The notes under the pieces were generated by a model. That model worked only from the letters and a program-made list of their open reading frames with translations, searched no databases and was not told the origin of the DNA. Positions 2,127-56,660 of a stretch of DNA of 64,000 nt are shown piece by piece. The stretch covers positions 186,001 to 250,000 of the forward strand of contig NC_016622.1 of NCBI RefSeq assembly GCF_000283655.1. The letters are read 5' to 3'. The DNA is from Azospirillum lipoferum 4B (GTDB taxonomy: Bacteria; Pseudomonadota; Alphaproteobacteria; Azospirillales; Azospirillaceae). Position 1 is the first letter of the stretch. Each line of letters begins with the position of its first letter. The position numbers and the translations under genes are program-made.

Positions 2127-3350
2127 TTAATCGGAAGGCGGAAAGAAGCGGTCCGGCGTCTCCTGCCGGGCGATCCACAGGGCGGTCAAATCGTCGCACA
2201 GCCGGGTGCCGAACCGCTCGGTGAAGCGGGTCATCACCCACAGAAGCGGCCAACCCGGCGCTTCCGCCAGCGCCTGCGCCACCAGATCGGCGAGCCCGTC
2301 GTCGCCCAGCATGGCGCCGGCGGCGTCCTGCGCCTCCGTCATGGCGTCGGAATAGAGGAACAGGGCGTCGCCGTCGCGGAAGGGGGCGGAGCGGGCGGCG
2401 TAGTCGGCCTCCTCCAGGATCCCGAGGGGCAGGCCGGAGGAATCGAGCGCGCTCAGCCCGCCGGACCGCGCCAGCAACGGCGGCGGCGCGCCGGCACCCG
2501 CATAGTGCAGGCGGTCGCTGCCGCGGTCGATCACGCCGTAGAAGGCGGTGGCGAACTGGCCGGGCGCCAGGATGGCGGACAGGCGCTGGTTCAGGTTGGT
2601 CAGAAGCCGTGCCGGTTCCGCCAACTCCTCCACCGGCTGGCGGGTCAGCAGGGTGTGGAGCCGGAAGGCGTTTATCGCCGCGGCGATGCCATGTCCCGAC
2701 AGGTCGGCGATGAAGACGCCGATCCGTTGGGCATCGATTTCGAAGGCGGTCCAGAAATCGCCGCCGACCTCGTCGGAGGTTTCGAACACCGGAGCGATGG
2801 CCAGGCGATGGCGGTCCGCCAGCGCTTCCAGCCACAGCGGCTCCGGCGCCAGCGAAAGCTGCATCGCCCGCGCCTGTCCCAAATCCTGGCCGACCCGCTC
2901 GCGGAAGGCGCGCAGTTCCTGCACCATCGACCGGCGTTCCAGATGATAGCGGACGCGGGCGATGCATTCGCCGGGATTGACCGGCTTGCCCAGCAGGTCG
3001 GTCGCGCCGGCCTGAAAGCACAGGGTCCGCATCTGGTCGGTCATCTGGGCGCCCTGCACCAGGATGGGCAGGTCATGCCAGCGCGGGTTGCTCCGCAACT
3101 CCCGGCACAGGGCGAGAAGGTCGTCGGCACCGGCAAGGTCGGCGTCCAACACCAGCAGGTCGGGGTCGAAGGCGCCGATGCAGGACAGCAACTCCGGCCC
3201 GTTGGAGACGCAGGCGATCCGCGTGATGCCGGCCCAATGCAGGAACCGGCTGAGGATGCGCTGGTCATACAGGCTGTCGTCGGCGATCAGCACCTTCCGA
3301 TCGCCCAGCGGCTGGCCGAGATCCAGCGCGTAGAGCTGTCCCGAAGCCAT
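2127..3350 (-). CDS. Response regulator with C-terminal PP2C (SpoIIE/RsbU) phosphatase domain
   Basis: 407 aa with start at 3348-3350 (MASGQLYALDLG); a longer upstream reading frame overlaps the STAS gene and has un-protein-like composition. An N-terminal receiver domain (about 18-135) shows DD at 24-25 and LLVLDAD near 66. A helical linker follows, then a SpoIIE/RsbU-type PP2C domain (about 190-395) with GGDFW, SGHG and YSDAMTE metal-site motifs. Known relatives dephosphorylate STAS anti-anti-sigma proteins on input from a histidine kinase. The STAS gene immediately upstream (22 bp, same strand) is the likely substrate. Confidence 0.88.
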   Translation of the reverse strand: MASGQLYALDLGQPLGDRKVLIADDSLYDQRILSRFLHWAGITRIACVSNGPELLSCIGAFDPDLLVLDADLAGADDLLALCRELRSNPRWHDLPILVQGAQMTDQMRTLCFQAGATDLLGKPVNPGECIARVRYHLERRSMVQELRAFRERVGQDLGQARAMQLSLAPEPLWLEALADRHRLAIAPVFETSDEVGGDFWTAFEIDAQRIGVFIADLSGHGIAAAINAFRLHTLLTRQPVEELAEPARLLTNLNQRLSAILAPGQFATAFYGVIDRGSDRLHYAGAGAPPPLLARSGGLSALDSSGLPLGILEEADYAARSAPFRDGDALFLYSDAMTEAQDAAGAMLGDDGLADLVAQALAEAPGWPLLWVMTRFTERFGTRLCDDLTALWIARQETPDRFFPPSD

Positions 3351-35091: not shown

Positions 35092-35106
35092 CCGCGCCAC
35101 AACGAC

Positions 35107-35181
<75 letters not shown>

Positions 35182-35476
35182 GTTTTCCCACCGGCGGATT
35201 TGCCGGTTTCCCACACAGGGCTCGGCAACGAGCCCTGTGTTTGTTTATGCGCCAGATCAAACAGCAACGTCGAGTCGACAGAAATTTGCGAGCTATGGCC
35301 AACTTTCCCGTCACAATTCGATTCCTTTCGGAATCCAGGACTCCGGGGAGTGGGTCATTTCGTTGCGTTTATGGCGCGCTAGTGGATTATCGCAGAATAA
35401 TACGTGTCAACCCGTGCTTATCCATGCCATATGGCGTTAAGAGCTTCGGTCGACCGAGCCGTATCGGGGGGATGCT

Positions 35477-35776
35477 ATGCTGCCCAATCTGATCCAAGCC
35501 GTGGTGCTCTTGGCCCTCGGCTCGTTTGCTGTATCGTGCTTTATGTTCGCAGCCAAGCTGTTCCGAGCTGATGGGCATGAGTACGCACGCAATCGGGATC
35601 GCACTGGCGGCTTTCGTAAAGCTCTGCGTGGCGAGATCGAGACGGTATTCGATGGTGCTCGTGATTACCGGGTTTCAGCTGGTATTGCGATCGACCGCAA
35701 TACCAATAGCTGGGTAGAGCAAGGGCGACTGTCTGAAGAGGCGATTTCGGCCTCCCTTCGGCCGGCTCGGCAGTAA
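35477..35776 (+). CDS. Small putative membrane protein (99 aa)
   Basis: Starts MLPNLIQAVVLLALGSFAVS after a GGGGGG stretch. One N-terminal membrane helix (about 5-28) is followed by a basic then mixed soluble tail containing RVSAGIAIDRNTNSW. Its stop is 14 bp before the TTG start of the following unknown gene, so the pair could form an operon. No family is recognised, and a shorter frame overlaps it, so it is uncertain. Confidence 0.4.
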   Translation: MLPNLIQAVVLLALGSFAVSCFMFAAKLFRADGHEYARNRDRTGGFRKALRGEIETVFDGARDYRVSAGIAIDRNTNSWVEQGRLSEEAISASLRPARQ

Positions 35777-35790
35777 CAGTAGCAAAACTG

Positions 35791-37179
35791 TTGAGCACTC
35801 AAGGTGATTTATCGAAGGCTTCGCTTCCCTCAAAAAGCGAAGCTTTTAAGGCGGATACTGCCAAGCATCCCTACCACTTCCGTGGTTGGGTTCCGGCGGT
35901 CAGTGGTCGTCTGTCTTTTCGAGCCTTTGGGCAATCATCCTTTCCCACTAAGGCGGTTAGTGCAAATCGTTCAGATGGCAAGACAAGTTATATTGTCTGC
36001 TATCAGAGACGAGATGCGTCTGATGTCGTTCTTCCATTCAAATCAGCGCTAGCTCCCTTGATGCTAAAACTTAAGGGAGATTTCTATTTTGTCTGCATAG
36101 CCAAGACTGTCCATCACGAGGGCCGCAAGCAGGAATTTCTAGATGGCTGGTTAATTTTATTTGAGAATACTGAGGTTTGGAAAAATCATGTAGCCCCTAT
36201 ACTAAAGGAGCTTCAGGATCATATTAGGCAATATCGAGCGTATTCTCTCTCGTGTTCGCTAGATGAACATGTGGCGGCGAAATATCAGGCAACTATTAAT
36301 GGAGCTAAGACGCTCTCAAGTTTCAATGCGCAATTCTCACTGTCTCGGTCGGGAACCGTATCTATTGCGGTTCCTCTCAAGCCCGTTGTTTCAAGCAAGG
36401 CCCCTGCTTTTCCAAAGGATGCCCCTAACAGAGGGCACATGATGCATTTGCTTTCAGCCCAGTTATTTTTCTTCTTGAGGGATATTGGGCATCGGCATCA
36501 GCACCATGATCCTAAGACAGATACAATTTCAGATCTTCACAGGATTGATAAGATCGATGATGACTTCAACTGGAGGCTCGGTACCCTCTATTCAATGTAT
36601 CGGAAGGTCATTGATCTAAAGCGTGCGCCGCATAGCGATACCCTTGCGAATGCTATGGGTGTAATTGCCTATGCTGAGACTTTTGAAAATATATGCAAAG
36701 ACGAACTGGATAAAAATTCAGCTGAGAACCTGCCAACATACTATAATGAACAAACTAAAGAAAGTATTTCTGCGGCAAAGTCAGCTTTAGAGCTTAGGTA
36801 TGCGGAGAATGTCAGGAAGAGGGATGGTCTTCGGTCTCTGCTCCTGAGCATTCTTGGTGCTGTATTCGCGTTTGTGGCTCTGCTTAGTTTGGCAGATGGC
36901 GCGGGTAGTATCAAGGCGCACCCAGCTCTCTTGGGTGCGGCGAGGATGATGCTTGTTCATCCATTTGAGTGTTTGTTTTTGGTAATCTTTCTGTATGTGA
37001 TTTATGCAAAAATTGCAACTTTTGGTGAGCCGAAGGCCTTTCCGTTGTTCAGAAAGACGCTAAGGCTTTTCCATTTTCTGGATCGTCCTGTCCAAGTGAT
37101 AGCTTGGATATTTCTTGGCTTGGCGACCATTGCGTTGATGTACTTCGTATTTTTAGTGGATTTTTCCAAGATATTGTAG
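35791..37179 (+). CDS. Orphan protein with three C-terminal membrane helices
   Basis: 462 aa from TTG at 35791; no ATG lies in frame before residue 90, and the in-frame upstream stop is at 35734. A soluble N-terminal region of about 340 residues contains HRHQHHDP near 235 and a helical stretch before the membrane part. Three TM helices follow (about 350-370, 393-412 and 433-455). Base composition differs from the core genome. No family is recognised. Membrane anchoring plus an island location would suit a defence or stress effector, but that is speculation. Confidence 0.7.
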   Translation: MSTQGDLSKASLPSKSEAFKADTAKHPYHFRGWVPAVSGRLSFRAFGQSSFPTKAVSANRSDGKTSYIVCYQRRDASDVVLPFKSALAPLMLKLKGDFYFVCIAKTVHHEGRKQEFLDGWLILFENTEVWKNHVAPILKELQDHIRQYRAYSLSCSLDEHVAAKYQATINGAKTLSSFNAQFSLSRSGTVSIAVPLKPVVSSKAPAFPKDAPNRGHMMHLLSAQLFFFLRDIGHRHQHHDPKTDTISDLHRIDKIDDDFNWRLGTLYSMYRKVIDLKRAPHSDTLANAMGVIAYAETFENICKDELDKNSAENLPTYYNEQTKESISAAKSALELRYAENVRKRDGLRSLLLSILGAVFAFVALLSLADGAGSIKAHPALLGAARMMLVHPFECLFLVIFLYVIYAKIATFGEPKAFPLFRKTLRLFHFLDRPVQVIAWIFLGLATIALMYFVFLVDFSKIL

Positions 37180-37730
37180 AGTTATCCTGCGGACTATTCT
37201 TTTCTCATTGTTCTCTTTATCTGCGCGGCATGCCGCCATGCGGTCATCCGGCCGGACATAAACGGCGACCACGCCGCGGGACCGGTGCCCCGTGACCGAC
37301 CGGATCTCGTCATCGGTCGCGCCGGCCGTGCCCAACTCGGTGGCGGCGGTGCGGCGCAGATCGCGGAACTGAAGCTCCGCCGGCAGCTGGGCGAGCGCAC
37401 GGATCCGGGCGAACTCATGGCCGAAGTGGAATTTCTGGTACGGCCGGCCGGTCGCCTCACTGACGATCACCTGCACGGCGTCGCGCTTCAACTTCCCCAG
37501 CAGTGCCTGCATGGCCGGCGTCACCGGCACCCGCAGGGCGTGCTTGGTCTTGCCCTGCACCAGGCTGAAGGCCGTGCCGTCATAGTCCGACCATTTCAGC
37601 GCCAGGATGTCTCCCTGTCGCTGGCCGATATCGAGCGCCAGCCGAACTGCGAGCGCCAGTGACCCCCCGGCCGGCCTTGATGGCGGCGGCGCAGAGGGTG
37701 TTCATCTGGTCCGGCTGGCCGCCAAAAACA
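37153..37730 (-). pseudogene. Tyrosine recombinase (integrase) remnant, frameshifted and truncated
   Basis: The frame encodes the catalytic C-terminus: LALDIGQRQGDILALKWSDY, then FRDLRRTAATELG, TGHRSR and the nucleophile in AVYVR, ending YLGKIH. Upstream, MNTLCAAAIKAGR is in another frame, switching near a run of six Cs at 37663-37668. No N-terminal core-binding domain remains. Presumably the former integrase of the tRNA-Thr element. Its 3' end overlaps the unknown plus-strand gene's end by 27 bp. Confidence 0.8.
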
Positions 37731-50514: not shown

Positions 50515-51418
50515 CGGCTTTCTCGGCAGGCCTTCTTTCAGGCGGGGGCGCGCTGGCCGGCGCCGCGGTCTTCGCCAGATGCAGCCAGCGGCGGTAGGCC
50601 TCGACGCCCACCGGCGCCCGGTGCTTCAGCCCGATGCGGAGGATCTGCGGCAGGGCCAGCAGCACCTTCAGGTCGGTCATCCGCGGTCCGTGGCGCAGGT
50701 TCTTCCAGCTGTTGCCGGCCCAGGCGCGCGCCAGCCGCCACGCCAGCAGCGGGGACGGGCAGCGCGCCACCTCGCGGATCAGGTCGTTGCGGTGGTTGTA
50801 GAAGCGCTCCATCCCCGGCTTGCGGCCCTTCTCGCTCTTGTCGTGGTAGACCATCACATCCGGCAGGGCGACGACGCGGTAGCCGGCGCCGACCAGCCGC
50901 AGGCAGCGGTCCTTCTCCTCCCCCTGGCGGTAGAGTTCCGGCATGTAGAGGCCGACCCGCTCGACAGCGCTGCGCCGCAGCAGATGGCCGCAGCCGACAT
51001 ACCAGGGCACATCGAAGGGCGCCGCCCCCTTGGGGAAATAGACCAGCCCGTCGCGCGTCTCGATGTTGCAGGCGACGGCGGCGACCTCGGGGTTCTGTTC
51101 CAGATAGGCGACGCAGCGGGCCAGCCCGTCGGGATCCTCGAACCAGCTGTCGTCGTCGACCGACAGGATGCAGTCGCCGGCGGTGTTCACGAAGCCGAAG
51201 TTGCGGGCCAGGATCAACCCGCCATTGTGCGGCTGGCGGACGTAGCGGACGGTGGGAAACTCCGCCCGCATCATCGCGCCGGTGCCGTCGCTGGAACCGT
51301 CGTCGATGACGATGATCTCCATCGGCGGGGTGGTCTGGGTCATCAGCCGGGTCAGCGCGATGCGCAGCTCCGGCCCGCGGTTGTAGGTGGCGATGACGGC
51401 GCTGACGGTCAGCGTCAT
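50450..51418 (-). CDS. Family 2 glycosyltransferase
   Basis: 322 aa from ATG at 51416-51418. GT-A fold with VSAVIATYNRGPEL, IVIDDGSSDG and the metal-binding DDDSW (DXD). ERFYNHRNDLI and a C-terminal Pro/Ala/Arg-rich tail follow. Likely adds a sugar to a lipid-linked polysaccharide precursor on the cytoplasmic side. Its start overlaps the stop of the upstream polymerase gene by 4 bp (coupled). Confidence 0.9.
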   Translation of the reverse strand: MTLTVSAVIATYNRGPELRIALTRLMTQTTPPMEIIVIDDGSSDGTGAMMRAEFPTVRYVRQPHNGGLILARNFGFVNTAGDCILSVDDDSWFEDPDGLARCVAYLEQNPEVAAVACNIETRDGLVYFPKGAAPFDVPWYVGCGHLLRRSAVERVGLYMPELYRQGEEKDRCLRLVGAGYRVVALPDVMVYHDKSEKGRKPGMERFYNHRNDLIREVARCPSPLLAWRLARAWAGNSWKNLRHGPRMTDLKVLLALPQILRIGLKHRAPVGVEAYRRWLHLAKTAAPASAPPPERRPAEKAVNRPAASRPAAAERPSPARSD

Positions 51419-52824
51419 GACGGCTCCCTTCGGACAAGATTGGGCGGCGCCACCACCGGACGCAGCGGATCGTCCTCCAGGATTCCCCAGGCCCGCAGCA
51501 CGCGGGTCAGCGCGATCCACAGCAGGATCGGCAGCAGCGAGAAGAAACCGAACTTCACGATGGTGATGTTGCCGTCGCGGAACCATTGCAGGCACAGCGG
51601 CAGGAAGGCGCAGTAGAACAGCACAGCATAGCGGTTGCGGAACCCGTCGGTCCAGAACCAGCGGTGCAGCCGCCCCAGGATCAGCCCGACCACCACCATG
51701 GTGACGATCATGCCGATCCAGCCGGCGCTCATCCAGCCGTCGCCCGGCAGCGAGGTGGTCAGGTTGTAGAAGACGCCGTAGTCGTTCAGGTCCACCCATT
51801 TCACCGGCGCGCCCACCGGCTTGCCCGGCCACAATATGCGGGGGATCGGTTCGGTGAACAGCTGCAGATACTGGGTGAACCAAGTGTAGGTCGCCGACTG
51901 TTTCGGCACCACCCACAGGATGTAGGCGAGGAAGTCGAAGTTCGCCAGATCCTGGCCGGCCAGCGCGTCGATCGCCCGGCCGCCGCCGCTGCCGCCGTTG
52001 AACCTCAGCAGGACCGAGGGCGGCGCGTCGCCGGCCAGCACGTCGCGGAAGGCGTCGCGGTTGTTGCCGAGCAGCGTGAACAGCCCCAGCACCGGAACCG
52101 CGGCCAGCGCATGCCACAGACGGAACCATTTGGTGCGGGTGCGGTACAGCATCAGCAGCACCAGACCCAGGATGCCCATGATGATCGCCCAGCGGCCCCA
52201 GCCCAGATAGGCGCGGTAGGCGACGAAGCCGGCGAAGGGCAGGAAGGACAGCGGGTGGAAGCGGCAGATCCAGATCAGCCCCAGCGTCAGCGGCAGGCCC
52301 ATCGAATGGGCTTCGGCGATATAGCCGGTGGTGTTGGTGTAGATCGGCTGTCCGGTCAGCGGATCGCGCTCCATCTGCACGTCGCCGGTGCCGTCGAAGC
52401 TGGCGCCGCCCTGGCGCTGGATCGCCGAATAGATGGCGAGCGGACCCAGCAGCGCCGCGGTGGTCAGGAAGGCCACGATGTCGACGCGGTCGAAGGCGAA
52501 GGACGGCGCCGGTTCCCCGTTCGGGGTCCAGTCGGGGCGGATCATCCCGGCCCAGGCGCAGGCGGCGGCGAAGGCGACCAGCCCGACCGAGCTGACCATC
52601 AGGGTCATGACGAATTGCTGTTCGCTGGGCCAGAAGCCCATGAACAGCCACACGTCGTCGAAATTCTGCGTATGGACCAGGATCGGCCGCATGACGAAGA
52701 CCAGAGCATGGAAGATCAGGTACAGCGTCAGCGGATGGAACATCGATGCGCTGCCGGTGCTGTGGAACACCGCGGTCACCAGCACCAGCACCAGGACCTG
52801 CGCGATCAGCGCCATTTCGATCAT
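51415..52824 (-). CDS. O-antigen/exopolysaccharide polymerase-like membrane protein
   Basis: About 469 aa from ATG at 52822-52824 (MIEMALIAQVLVLVL); an in-frame ATG at 52866 would add 14 residues without a better ribosome-binding site. About ten membrane helices with a large periplasmic loop (about 285-370: GNNRDAFRDVL...ILWPGKPVGAP), a Wzy/oligosaccharide-repeat-polymerase layout. Overlaps the GT2 gene by 4 bp, suggesting a two-gene surface polysaccharide unit. The linkage formed is unknown. Confidence 0.78.
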   Translation of the reverse strand: MIEMALIAQVLVLVLVTAVFHSTGSASMFHPLTLYLIFHALVFVMRPILVHTQNFDDVWLFMGFWPSEQQFVMTLMVSSVGLVAFAAACAWAGMIRPDWTPNGEPAPSFAFDRVDIVAFLTTAALLGPLAIYSAIQRQGGASFDGTGDVQMERDPLTGQPIYTNTTGYIAEAHSMGLPLTLGLIWICRFHPLSFLPFAGFVAYRAYLGWGRWAIIMGILGLVLLMLYRTRTKWFRLWHALAAVPVLGLFTLLGNNRDAFRDVLAGDAPPSVLLRFNGGSGGGRAIDALAGQDLANFDFLAYILWVVPKQSATYTWFTQYLQLFTEPIPRILWPGKPVGAPVKWVDLNDYGVFYNLTTSLPGDGWMSAGWIGMIVTMVVVGLILGRLHRWFWTDGFRNRYAVLFYCAFLPLCLQWFRDGNITIVKFGFFSLLPILLWIALTRVLRAWGILEDDPLRPVVAPPNLVRREPS

Positions 52825-52866
52825 TGTGGCTTCATTCCAGTGTCTAAGCGTTGGAGAAATTGACAT

Positions 52867-53149
52867 AGCTTGTGACGATCAATAACCGCCAATTTATGCG
52901 AACGGAAAAGCGCTCAGGTGGATAGGGTGTGCGTCGATTTAATTAATGCCATAATGACCAATACCACTTTGGTTGTTCTCTGGCGGTGTTGCGCATAAAT
53001 ATTATGATGTTAATGGATTATTTTGACAAATAGGCGGTCTGGAAGTGGAGTTGTTGTTTTTGATCGCTATAGATTTGGATTGGAGAAATGCATGCATGCG
53101 AAAGATTTTCTTGAAACCTAAACTTTTCCCTAGCGCCGCTTTTCCTATC
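52867..53149. other. AT-rich intergenic stretch without a supported gene
   Basis: Sharply AT-richer than the neighbouring polymerase gene and lacking any convincing ORF on either strand. It marks the left edge of the AT-rich insertion carrying the toxin-antitoxin-like cassette. Confidence 0.6.
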
Positions 53150-53178
53150 TTGACGGCTCCTAGAGGTATGGGTTATAG
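53150..53178 (+). promoter_or_regulatory. Sigma-70-like promoter of the AT-rich cassette
   Basis: TTGACG (53150-53155), 17-bp spacer, TTATAG (53173-53178). The -10 box overlaps the left arm of the perfect dyad at 53174-53191. Confidence 0.7.
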
Positions 53179-53191
53179 CAAAAATGCTATA
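53174..53191. promoter_or_regulatory. Perfect dyad operator TATAGCA-AAAA-TGCTATA
   Basis: Seven-base arms and a four-base spacer, 49 bp before the first cassette gene. It covers the -10 element, the position expected for autorepression by the XRE protein of the cassette (inferred). Confidence 0.75.
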
Positions 53192-53239
53192 TCGCATTCA
53201 TAAGTTTGGATGCGGCGCACGCACAGAAGGGAGGTGAAA

Positions 53240-53617
53240 ATGCCCACCCCGGCAAAACCATCAATCAATCGCCAGTTTGATATCCGGTTTCTTCCCGGCG
53301 ATGAGCAAGATGGGTCCGGTCGGGAACTTCTTAATCTCCTTAAATCGTTATCGAGATTTGAGAGGGTCGATGTGTCGTCTCGTGTTGAGGCTCTTTTTTT
53401 GAATCTTTCTGCCAAAGGGCCTTACGGCGATCCGTACATGGAGAAGGATGAGACCCGATATTACAAGTACTATTACCAGGGAATTATTATATTTTATTCT
53501 GTTTTTGAAAATGTAATTACCGTCTTGCATTCTCGTCGTGTCAGGTGCTCTAGTGAAGAGCGAGAGGGTCAGCGCATTGTTGATCGGAGGCTTATGGGTA
53601 TCTATTTAGTTAAGTAA
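53240..53617 (+). CDS. RelE/HigB-like small protein, candidate toxin
   Basis: 125 aa from ATG at 53240 with strong GGGAGGTGAAA ribosome-binding site; an ATG at 53210 in frame is less likely. The core LNLSAKGPYGDPYMEKD...YYQGIIIFYSVFENVITVLHSRRV follows the beta-strand rhythm of RelE/HigB-type toxins (small-molecule-sized, G-rich turn, then two strands and a basic end). No catalytic residue can be assigned. First gene of an AT-rich three-ORF cassette ending with an XRE regulator. Confidence 0.65.
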   Translation: MPTPAKPSINRQFDIRFLPGDEQDGSGRELLNLLKSLSRFERVDVSSRVEALFLNLSAKGPYGDPYMEKDETRYYKYYYQGIIIFYSVFENVITVLHSRRVRCSSEEREGQRIVDRRLMGIYLVK

Positions 53618-53661
53618 ATAAAAAACTTCCAATGTCTCACCATGCTAAGAGGAGGTTACCA

Positions 53662-53754
53662 ATGCGCGCTGAATATCTAGGGGAACTCGAAATCAGAATC
53701 ATTTCCGTTAATATAAACTTAAATTATCAAGCAAAAAAGTGTCCCTTTGCTTAA
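53662..53754 (+). CDS. 30-aa peptide ORF between the cassette genes
   Basis: MRAEYLGELEIRIISVNINL plus NYQAKKCPFA, preceded by AGGAGGTTACC, one of the strongest Shine-Dalgarno sequences in the window. Its stop is 16 bp before the XRE start and abuts that gene's ribosome-binding site, so translation of the peptide could control XRE translation. Function unknown. Confidence 0.5.
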   Translation: MRAEYLGELEIRIISVNINLNYQAKKCPFA

Positions 53755-53770
53755 GAAGGTGGAGGGAGCG

Positions 53771-54196
53771 ATGGCTAAAATAACTAAAATTCAGGGTGGT
53801 GGCAATGCGGGTTATGTTGACGAAACTCTCGATAACTTTATATCAGATTTAAGAGAAATATCAGGTATTAATTATGTAAAACACGACCATCATGCAGCTA
53901 TTGATGCGGCGCGTTTCTGTTATGAAACACGCAAAAAGGCCGGTCTAACTCAGGCGAGGCTTGCTAAAAACATTAGGGTATCTCAATCTGTTATTGCGAG
54001 AATAGAAAGTGGTTCGTCAAAAAAAGGGCCAACTCTTGATATGCTTCAGCGCATAGCACGCGGCTGTGGCATGACGTTGGTTCTTAATACTGCTATTTCG
54101 CACGAAGCTGCGGCGGAAAAAAGCAGAAAAAGTGACGCGAGGACTTCAGGCGACGGGAATATTGTTTTTCCTACAATATTTTCTCCTAGAAAATAA
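53771..54196 (+). CDS. XRE-family HTH regulator, candidate antitoxin
   Basis: 141 aa from ATG at 53771, with a GGAGGGAGC ribosome-binding region; a TTG 24 bp upstream overlaps the peptide ORF and is unlikely. A central XRE helix-turn-helix (about 52-108: TRKKAGLTQARLAKNIRVSQSVIARIESG) follows an N-terminal region of about 45 residues that could bind the toxin; a polar tail ends it. HigA-like layout. Probable repressor of the dyad upstream of the cassette. Confidence 0.85.
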   Translation: MAKITKIQGGGNAGYVDETLDNFISDLREISGINYVKHDHHAAIDAARFCYETRKKAGLTQARLAKNIRVSQSVIARIESGSSKKGPTLDMLQRIARGCGMTLVLNTAISHEAAAEKSRKSDARTSGDGNIVFPTIFSPRK

Positions 54197-54205
54197 TCGC
54201 TTCGC

Positions 54206-54247
54206 AGAAAAGCCGCGATCCAGTTTTGCGCTGGAAGCGGCTTTTCT
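54206..54247 (+). terminator. Terminator of the AT-rich cassette
   Basis: Long hairpin AGAAAAGCCGC...GCGGCTTTTCT with an inner CCAG/CTGG pair, 10 bp after the XRE stop. The A-rich and T-rich stem base can act in either direction. The rest of the gap to 54544 holds no gene that I can see. Confidence 0.75.
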
Positions 54248-54544
54248 GATTCGCAAACATAGGCTCTTGCTGCGATGGCTGCTGCAGCCATACCTAAATA
54301 GACACGATGATATCTTGGCCACCTCAACCTTTACGGGGGGACGTTCCGCGGGCAAGCGGGTACGACCGGCCGGTCAGGCTAGGATGAAAAGCCAGCCTAT
54401 ACGTCCCGTCCCGGCCCGGCAGGGGTGCAGAGGGCGTGGCCCCTTCGCACCCGCACACCCCCTTCGCGCTTTTGCCGGTTGCCATGGGCCTGGGTCAGTC
54501 TCCCCCTTCGGCGGAAGATCCGTCGCAACGGAGGAGCTTTCTTC

Positions 54545-56503
54545 ATGCCCCGTTCCCACCCTGAGTTCTGGAGCGATCACCGGAGCCACCTCTGGAGCCG
54601 CGCAGTCCGCATCCTGGCGATGTGCGCGCTCCTGCTGCCTGCCGCCGGATGGGGACCGGCTGTCGCCGCGGAGACAACGTTCTATGTGTCGCCAACCGGA
54701 AACGACCGCTGGTCGGGCCGGCTGCCCCAGCCGTCGGCGGATGGGCGCGACGGCCCCTTCGCCACCCCGGCCCGCGCGTTGGCCGCCGCCAAGGGGGGCG
54801 GTCCGGCGACGGTGCGGCTGGGTGGCGGCACCTATCGGCTGACCGCGCCGCTGGTGGTGGACGGCTCGCTGTCGGGGCTGCGGCTGACGGCGGTGGAGGG
54901 CGAGCAGCCAGTTCTGTCGGGCGGCGAGGCGGTGGACGGCGCGCGCATGGCGAACGGTCTGCTGTCGGCGCCGCTGGCGCGCGATCCGGGGCTGGACGTC
55001 TCCATCGGGGGGCAACGGCTTGATGCCGCGCGCAGCGGCGATTTCGATCCCGGCGATCCGCGCAGCGGTTGGTTCCCGGCCAAGGCGGTGCAGCCCAACG
55101 CCAAGAATGCCGGTTCCAAGAGTCCGGGGAGCAAGCGGCAGATGCGGGTTCCGCCGGGCGTGCTGAAGGCCGCTTGGGCCGGGCCGGGGGTGCGGGCGCA
55201 GGCGCTGGACCGCGAACGGCTGTCCGACGATCTGCTGGGCGTCGTCTCCGCCGATCCCAACGGGCTGCTGAGCTTCGGCGCCGACGGGCAGTATCCGTAC
55301 CGCGACGGCTCCACCGTGCGGCTGCTCGGCCATCCCGATTTCCTGACCCGGCCGGGCGAGTTCGCCTGGGACGCCAAAGCCAAACGGTTGCTGGTGAAGC
55401 CGCCGACCGGGCTCGACGGCGGGCGGGCGGAGCTGGTGGTGGCGAGGACGGCCACCCTGCTGCGGCTGGACAACGCCCGCAACGTGACGGTCGAGGGGCT
55501 GACCTTCACCGACGTGCCCTGGGACGGCAGCGCCGTGCTGGCGAAGGGCGGCAGCGGCCTGCGCATTGCCGGCAACCGCTTCGCCCTGGTCGGCACCGCG
55601 GTCACGCTGGACGGCGCCACGCGCAGCGAGGTGTCGGGCAACCGGATGGAGCATCTCGGCCGCTCCGGTATCTTCCTGGCGCCGGGCAGCAGCGACAACC
55701 GTGTCCTCGCCAACCGCATCAGCGACGTGGGCGAGGTGCGATTCTTCGGCGGCGGGGTGATGGCGGCGGGCATCCGCAACACGCTGATCGCCCACAACGA
55801 CATCCGGCGGGCGGCGCGCTACGGCATCTCGGTGAAGAACTGGAACCCGCAGACGGTGAACAGCGACAACGTCATCGAATTCAACCGCATCCGCGACACC
55901 GCCCGCCAGACCGCCGATGCGGGCGCCATCGAGATGCTGGGCCGCAGCGGCAACGACACCCGCAGCATCGTCCGCTTCAACGACATCCGCGACACCGGCG
56001 GCCTCGCCACCGATGCGCAGGGGCGCTGGCTGGTCCGCTACAAGGGCTTCGGCATCTATCTGGACGACATGACCAGCGGCGTGACGGTGCAGGGCAATTT
56101 GCTGGAGAACACCGGCATGGCGGCGATCTTCGTGCATGGCGGCGACAACAACCGGGTGTCGGACAACATCACGATGATGAACGACATGAAGGACCGCTTC
56201 CTGCGGCTGGAATGGGTGCCCAGCGCCGGCAGGAACGGCCTGATGCACGGCAACGTCGCCAACGGCAACGTGGTGGCCGCCCCGGCGCCGAAGGAGCAGG
56301 TCGTCGTCAGCCTGACCGGCGGCGAATACAAGGTTGAGAACACGCAATTGGAAGCGTCGGTGCCAAGCGCGGGCACGGCCAGCCTCGCCAGGGCTGCCGC
56401 CCCACCGGCCCCGAACTCCCCGACCGGGGGGCGCCTGCTGGACCGGTTGCTGGCGATGAAGGAACTGCCGCTCGACCGCGTCGGGCCGGAGGGGATGCGG
56501 TAG
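54545..56503 (+). CDS. Exported right-handed parallel beta-helix protein
   Basis: 652 aa from ATG at 54545 with GGAGGAG 9 bp upstream. Signal peptide (about 18-43, hydrophobic ILAMCALLLPAAG, cleavage after VAA). The mature part opens with FYVSPTGNDRWSGRLPQPS, as in polysaccharide-lyase-like beta-helix proteins, then rungs with repeated NRI, GN-x-x and SDNR turns (about 330-560). A lyase, epimerase or adhesin role for a surface polysaccharide is plausible given neighbouring GT2 and polymerase genes; no catalytic residues were identified. Confidence 0.8.
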   Translation: MPRSHPEFWSDHRSHLWSRAVRILAMCALLLPAAGWGPAVAAETTFYVSPTGNDRWSGRLPQPSADGRDGPFATPARALAAAKGGGPATVRLGGGTYRLTAPLVVDGSLSGLRLTAVEGEQPVLSGGEAVDGARMANGLLSAPLARDPGLDVSIGGQRLDAARSGDFDPGDPRSGWFPAKAVQPNAKNAGSKSPGSKRQMRVPPGVLKAAWAGPGVRAQALDRERLSDDLLGVVSADPNGLLSFGADGQYPYRDGSTVRLLGHPDFLTRPGEFAWDAKAKRLLVKPPTGLDGGRAELVVARTATLLRLDNARNVTVEGLTFTDVPWDGSAVLAKGGSGLRIAGNRFALVGTAVTLDGATRSEVSGNRMEHLGRSGIFLAPGSSDNRVLANRISDVGEVRFFGGGVMAAGIRNTLIAHNDIRRAARYGISVKNWNPQTVNSDNVIEFNRIRDTARQTADAGAIEMLGRSGNDTRSIVRFNDIRDTGGLATDAQGRWLVRYKGFGIYLDDMTSGVTVQGNLLENTGMAAIFVHGGDNNRVSDNITMMNDMKDRFLRLEWVPSAGRNGLMHGNVANGNVVAAPAPKEQVVVSLTGGEYKVENTQLEASVPSAGTASLARAAAPPAPNSPTGGRLLDRLLAMKELPLDRVGPEGMR

Positions 56504-56507
56504 TAAA

Positions 56508-56660
56508 AAACCCTCTCCCGCCCCGGGAGAGGGGAGGGGCCCAAGCGAAGCTTGGGAGGGGTGAGGGGTGGGACAAGGATCAGAAATCCATGTCCCACCC
56601 CTCACCCTCCCGCCTTCGGCGGGCCCCTCCCTCTCCCGAGGCGGGAGAGGGGATTTTCAG
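56508..56660. repeat. Large composite palindromic repeat
   Basis: Nested inverted repeats built from CTCTCCCGCCCCGGGAGAGG and GGGTGAGGGGTGGGAC facing GTCCCACCCCTCACCC. It lies between the beta-helix gene and the convergent hemY 3' end and could act as a bidirectional terminator. Confidence 0.8.

Follow-up and report, generated by a model that had tools for sequence, protein, structure and literature searches.

What kind of element is the short AT-rich cassette that interrupts the polysaccharide genes of Azospirillum lipoferum 4B, and does it belong to any named class of toxin-antitoxin systems? The window analyzed here is the whole stretch of 64,000 nucleotides from contig NC_016622.1 (positions 186,001 to 250,000), and all coordinates below refer to it unless another locus is named. 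An earlier note on this DNA had described three genes that resembled a mobile toxin-antitoxin module. The features on which the argument turns are as follows.

51415-52824, minus strand: flanking gene, O-antigen-polymerase-like by inspection, with no Pfam match; its start codon borders the insert on the left side.
52825 to about 54332, no strand assigned: inserted segment of about 1508 bp, absent at the same site in relatives.
52825-53149, no strand assigned: left part of the insert, in which no gene is likely; it has displaced the upstream DNA native to the minus-strand neighbor, ribosome-binding region included.
53150-53179, plus strand: promoter-like TTGACG (53150), 18 nt, and TATAGC (53174), found by eye.
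53174-53191, no strand assigned: operator-like palindrome TATAGCA-AAAA-TGCTATA, read from the sequence and overlapping the presumed -10 box.
53240-53617, plus strand: P0001, an orphan ORF of 125 aa in the toxin position (ORF list and translation).
53662-53754, plus strand: P0002, a 30-aa ORF with a strong ribosome-binding site (ORF list).
53771-54196, plus strand: P0003, a 141-aa XRE-family protein, the probable antitoxin and repressor (ORF list and Pfam HTH_3).
54205-54248, plus strand: terminator-like hairpin with A and T tracts in its stem (inverted repeat and folding).
54545-56503, plus strand: flanking gene for a right-handed beta-helix protein.

The three same-direction ORFs of 125, 30, and 141 aa were confirmed as first described, together with their strong ribosome-binding sites. 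The duplex energies with what we take to be the anti-Shine-Dalgarno sequence were calculated to be -14.3, -11.3, and -9.8 kcal/mol for P0001, P0002, and P0003, respectively. By the same measure, the alternative in-frame upstream starts at 53210, 53632, and 53747 gave values of -0.9, +0.6, and -1.8 kcal/mol, and since these pair far more weakly, the called starts of the three ORFs are probably right. The single promoter that had been claimed is plausible: TTGACG-18-TATAGC can be recognized by eye, but a consensus scan reported no plus-strand promoter within 52600-54800. The proposed terminator corresponds to a terminator-like hairpin, for which folding gave -32.2 kcal/mol (z -5.45) and which is formed by the 12-bp perfect inverted repeat of 54205-54216 with 54237-54248. 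This hairpin is absent from the listing of the terminator scan, probably on account of its loop and of the T tract inside its stem. A search of 52600-54800 against Rfam returned no match at E values up to 1.

The cassette is an insertion, most likely acquired horizontally. Positions 51400-56600 were used as the query in a search for the empty site, and 42 of the 45 genomes of the genus were matched. The two flanks are nearly adjacent in 39 of the 39 same-genus genomes that had both flanks among the matches listed, and at this site the window has 1366 to 1618 bases more than these 39 relatives (1464 to 1481 in 30 of them). The junctions were read in 20 genomes of the genus. The left edge, at 52824/52825, is exactly the start codon of the minus-strand polymerase-like gene, where the BLAST match stops in 20/20, and the right edge is located near 54332. 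In 17 genomes the match picks up again close to this right edge, and these have 33-56 nt instead of the insert. No target-site duplication or terminal repeats were noticed at the edges of the insert. Searches with the DNA of the insert (52830-54325) gave no hits among phages or the 82 genomes of the order, and window DNA from 52400-54600 gave none in plasmids. The GC content is 43.2% in the insert but 65.9% in one flanking gene and 71.0% in the other, so that the cassette is AT-richer than its polysaccharide neighbors, as had been reported. An empty site in every one of the 39 genomes also supports recent acquisition and, with it, the proposal of a mobile or acquired module; the inserted unit is wider than the span of 53150-54247 given in the earlier note.

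With its upstream DNA replaced by the insert, the polymerase-like gene now has a weak ribosome-binding site (-3.3 kcal/mol). An in-frame ATG at 52866, which has no ribosome-binding site, would lengthen the polymerase-like protein by 14 residues into the insert. Elsewhere in the window, a second AT-rich stretch at 35100-37600 falls to 45% GC beside a tRNA-Thr gene (35107-35181). It contains a 135-aa phage-integrase fragment (37153-37560, minus strand) and two ORFs with no Pfam match, and it resembles an integrated island that is either small or decayed.

The identity of the cassette was approached through P0003. This protein has an HTH_3 domain at residues 52-103 (Pfam, E 5.4e-13), and in the five best matches of the phylum search the similarity begins at residues 32-40, that is, ahead of the HTH domain. 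Relatives were found in 24 of 398 genomes of the phylum and in 39 of 367 genomes of the class, and in 0 of the 82 genomes of the order at an E value of 1e-6. None were found in GTDB contigs or IMG/VR by a pattern method, and none in phages. Five plasmid records matched about half of the protein, and two of these places were inspected. On a cyanobacterial plasmid (L012), a Gp49 gene is directly upstream of the P0003-like gene; on a plasmid of Mycobacterium (L011), a Gp49 gene upstream of the P0003-like gene was not detected. The latter, from Mycobacterium intracellulare, encodes at positions 2299-3201 a 300-aa protein in which the P0003-like XRE domain is fused behind an HD domain.

For the survey of gene neighborhoods, 55 loci of XRE relatives were assembled from 26 phylum matches and 29 further ones out of the 45 listed in the class search. 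Of these, 51 could be placed (L027, L028, L111, and L116 were dropped), including L025, a spurious tblastn match (E 0.20) that was counted as having no upstream toxin. A same-strand frame matching a Gp49 or ParE profile, each constructed for this analysis, is present within 700 nt upstream in 37 of the 51 placed relatives. When the same criterion was applied to relatives and controls (any such frame within about 3 kb, on either strand), 42 of 55 relative loci were positive versus 2 of 28 HTH_3 control loci, and the two positive controls coincide with L110 and L102, which are already among the relatives. The controls were 28 of 30 loci fetched, with L146 and L147 left out. Four of the neighboring proteins were examined with Pfam; the Gp49 cut-off was passed by three (L023, L020, and L012) and the ParE cut-off by one (L018), and beside the XRE relatives as a whole Gp49-profile neighbors are far commoner than ParE-profile ones. 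No upstream toxin was seen in 14 of the 51 placed relatives, three of which (L013, L094, and L097) gained one under another criterion. P0003 is, on these counts, kin to toxin-partnered XRE proteins.

In two other genomes of the class, the XRE gene is preceded by a small protein of no classified kind. In L089 (1021-2147, minus strand) and L090 (341-1296, minus strand), this protein of 120 and 113 aa, respectively, overlaps the XRE gene by 4 nt, and the XRE gene is followed after 6 nt by a protein of 104 and 92 aa, respectively, which appears by eye to be a membrane protein. The two loci are possible three-gene cassettes without family names. Their small proteins matched no family over its cut-off; P0006 found no match in plasmids, and P0008 found none in plasmids or IMG/VR. 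They were considered and rejected as kin of P0001, because BLASTP gave no alignment for one and an E value of 1.1 for the other.

The second line of evidence is the palindrome, which was found in the window before the relatives were examined. By itself it is unremarkable: shuffling the 110-nt leader 1000 times gave one as good in 57 cases, and shuffling the whole 415-nt leader gave one in 188 of 1000. Upstream of the toxin genes of the relatives, for which the starts are profile-based estimates, the two commonest 6-mers are ATAGCA and GCTATA (21 and 16 of 38 regions, respectively). In 29 of these 38 regions (shuffle mean 2.06) the pattern ATAGC-N6-GCTAT agrees at 8 or more of its 10 positions, and in 11 of them (shuffle mean 0.0) it is complete. 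Within the 700 nt before the HTH match, corrected for strand, at least 9 of 10 positions were matched in 18 of 53 relatives versus 0 of 25 controls, and all 10 positions in 11 of 53 versus 0 of 25; at the looser threshold of at least 8 positions the contrast is weak (35/53 versus 9/25). The controls here were the 26 loci left after removal of the two that coincide with relatives, 25 of them being long enough for 700 nt, as were 53 of the 55 relatives. Within the 130 nt before the HTH match, at least 9 positions were matched in 0 of 54 relatives and 0 of 26 controls, which is expected if the operator precedes the toxin gene.

One relative (L117) carries 16 letters identical to the operator pattern of the window. 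The window has the pattern once at up to one mismatch, where 0.42 occurrences are expected, and TATAGCANNNNTGCTATA was found in 0 of the 45 genomes of the genus. The 16-letter pattern begins 65 nt before the start codon in the window; among the 29 relatives with 8 or more matching positions it begins 16-42 nt before the estimated start. The exact 18-bp palindrome also occurs in eight IMG/VR contigs; none of the eight has a toxin- or XRE-profile match (matching strand, downstream only), and these occurrences were put down to chance or unrelated use. On these counts, the palindrome is probably an operator common to the toxin operons of the relatives.

Because the XRE relatives have toxin neighbors and share the palindrome, an autoregulated toxin-first module is the most likely explanation. 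We consider it probable that the cassette is a horizontally acquired, autoregulated, toxin-first type II toxin-antitoxin operon built on the Gp49/HigBA plan. The earlier note had proposed a module with a toxin followed by an XRE gene, and this part of its proposal gains from the upstream toxins (37/51), the comparison with controls (42/55 versus 2/28), and the shared operator, but the identity of the toxin itself is weak. It could be argued that there is no toxin here at all and that the segment is a small mobile one on which the XRE repressor controls an unrelated cargo gene, given that P0001 has no demonstrated toxin homology and that 14 of the 51 placed relatives showed no upstream toxin in the 700-nt survey. 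The operator and the neighbors nevertheless link this group of XRE proteins to toxin operons, and we find this account quite unlikely.

The first protein is the most difficult part of the cassette. The best Pfam match of P0001 is ParE_toxin (PF05016) at residues 43-100, with an E value of 0.02 and 15.9 bits against a cut-off of 23, and Pfam gave no match to PF05973 (Gp49) or PF06296 at E values up to 1. NCBIfam and PADLOC returned nothing, and two PHROGs were matched only at E values of 0.13 and 0.29. With profiles built within this analysis, 70 of 5000 shuffles scored as well as P0001 on a small ParE profile, 105 of 5000 reached its score on a small Gp49 profile, and 834 of 5000 equaled it on a 27-sequence Gp49 profile. 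Comparison with Gp49 alignments using hhalign gave probabilities of 1.8 and 0.6%.

No homologues of P0001 were found at an E value of 0.01 in the 82 genomes of the order or the 398 genomes of the phylum. Ten of 385 genomes of the class had matches at E values up to 0.1 (best 0.002); the best of them (L001), which was the only one opened, sits in a ribosomal-protein gene cluster and was rejected. No usable homologues were obtained from GTDB contigs and IMG/VR, with a method that detects close relatives only, or from plasmids and phages. Three solved structures were matched at E values of 0.24 or worse and are unrelated by name. An AlphaFold2 model from the single sequence was all-helical and uninformative (mean pLDDT 44.2, pTM 0.28). 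The C-terminal half, with IIIFYSVFENVITVLHSRR, resembles by eye the last strands of RelE-type toxins, which serves as a lead only. The description of P0001 as RelE/HigB-like is weakly supported: the ParE_toxin match at E 0.02 speaks for it, but that match is below the cut-off, and 834 of 5000 shuffles do as well on the larger Gp49 profile. By these searches, P0001 has no demonstrated membership in any named toxin family, and the statement that it fits no nameable subfamily held, as no family exceeded its curated cut-off.

Two alternatives concern the nature of this protein. P0001 might have taken the place of the Gp49 toxin in an operon of the Gp49 type while being itself a toxin of a new family or fold; the regulator and operator would then be old and the toxin new. 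The XRE relatives and the operator do match Gp49 operons, P0001 is without a family over the cut-off or a usable homologue, and in L089 and L090, too, a related XRE protein is preceded by a small protein without classification. The ParE_toxin match (E 0.02, residues 43-100) and the score on the ParE profile (70/5000 shuffles) point instead to the RelE/ParE superfamily, and we judge such a replacement somewhat unlikely. The same match, as the sole one in Pfam, could indicate that P0001 is a ParE-like gyrase inhibitor and not an mRNase. At the aligned strand P0001 reads, by inspection, IIIFY, without the arginine that is common at that strand in the mRNases of the RelE type. The ParE_toxin family of Pfam, however, also includes mRNases, and Gp49-profile matches adjoin the XRE relatives far more often than ParE-profile ones. 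ParE modules are, moreover, antitoxin-first in Table 1 of PMC11980606, and a gyrase inhibitor is in our estimation highly improbable.

The 30-aa ORF sets the cassette apart as well. In 2000 shuffles of the 153-nt gap between P0001 and P0003, a ribosome-binding site as strong as that of P0002 preceded an ATG in eight, and in none did such a site also lead into a closed ORF at least 30 aa long. Since this combination is so rare in the shuffles, P0002 is probably translated, and it may be a leader or coupling peptide for translation of the antitoxin. The same shuffles could be taken to mean that the peptide is functional in a three-part module, for example as a second antitoxin or a phage-defense sensor. 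Pfam, NCBIfam, and PADLOC assign P0002 to no family and its single PHROG match has an E value of 0.22, and a translated leader that couples translation of the antitoxin explains it equally well; a functional third part is very unlikely. We also hold as unlikely the combined proposal that P0001 founds a new toxin family without detectable kin, has taken over a Gp49-type regulator and operator, and is accompanied by the translated 30-aa peptide as a third part. The replacement, gyrase, and three-part accounts overlap with the preferred explanation, and their odds do not sum to one.

How the preferred toxin-antitoxin operon compares with known systems can be stated for each of them. In PMC11980606, Gp49 modules have the order toxin-antitoxin and their toxins are ribosome-dependent mRNases; according to PMC5906591, the toxin comes first in every studied case of a module with a Gp49 domain. 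As in the Gp49-type HigBA systems described there (a PF05973 toxin, then an XRE antitoxin), the cassette is toxin-first with a related XRE protein downstream on the same strand, and it shares with the relatives a palindromic element, derived here from sequence only, upstream of the first gene. It differs from them in that the first protein has no PF05973 match, the leader of the operon is longer, and a 153-nt gap with a 30-aa ORF separates the genes, whereas the genes of the relatives overlap by 4-17 nt in 12 of 13 measured cases and are 5 nt apart in the other. In its working the cassette would resemble Gp49-type HigBA modules, but it is not classed among them, since its first protein lacks the family match and its genes are spaced differently. 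The likeness to the RelE/ParE superfamily (PF05016, residues 43-100) is weak and below the curated cut-off, and relative to ParE modules the gene order is reversed, being toxin-first here (PMC11980606). The relE-yiaG modules of the same source also have the toxin first, a longer N-terminus before the presumed toxin core, and an XRE protein downstream, but their toxins are members of PF06296, to which P0001 has no match. P0003, with its HTH_3 domain and with relatives that adjoin RelE-type toxins, resembles the XRE antitoxins of toxin-first modules.

The layout, the XRE group, and the operator are those of toxin-first modules, and P0003 is for this reason taken to be both repressor and neutralizer and P0001 to be the growth-arresting component. 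P0003, probably also in complex with P0001, would bind the palindrome over the promoter and repress the operon, and it would neutralize P0001 by direct binding. On loss or degradation of the antitoxin, P0001 would arrest growth. P0001 is most likely a very divergent protein of the RelE/ParE superfamily that would act on translation; its fold and target are predictions.

The types of regulator and operator are known; the unrecognized first protein, the additional 30-aa ORF, and the precise insertion are unusual. A literature search by title or the beginning of the abstract, with coverage far from the full literature, found no paper on an Azospirillum module of this kind. The insertion also provides an example of how a module of this type can enter a polysaccharide locus at its divergent promoter region and displace the leader of the polymerase-like gene. 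Toxin-antitoxin operons are often recognized through the toxin; here, XRE relatives and a conserved operator indicate a probable module whose putative toxin escapes sequence searches. If this is true, unrecognized toxins could be sought by way of ATAGC-N6-GCTAT next to an XRE gene, and the cassette would directly exemplify the exchange of a toxin, or its extreme divergence, under a conserved regulator.
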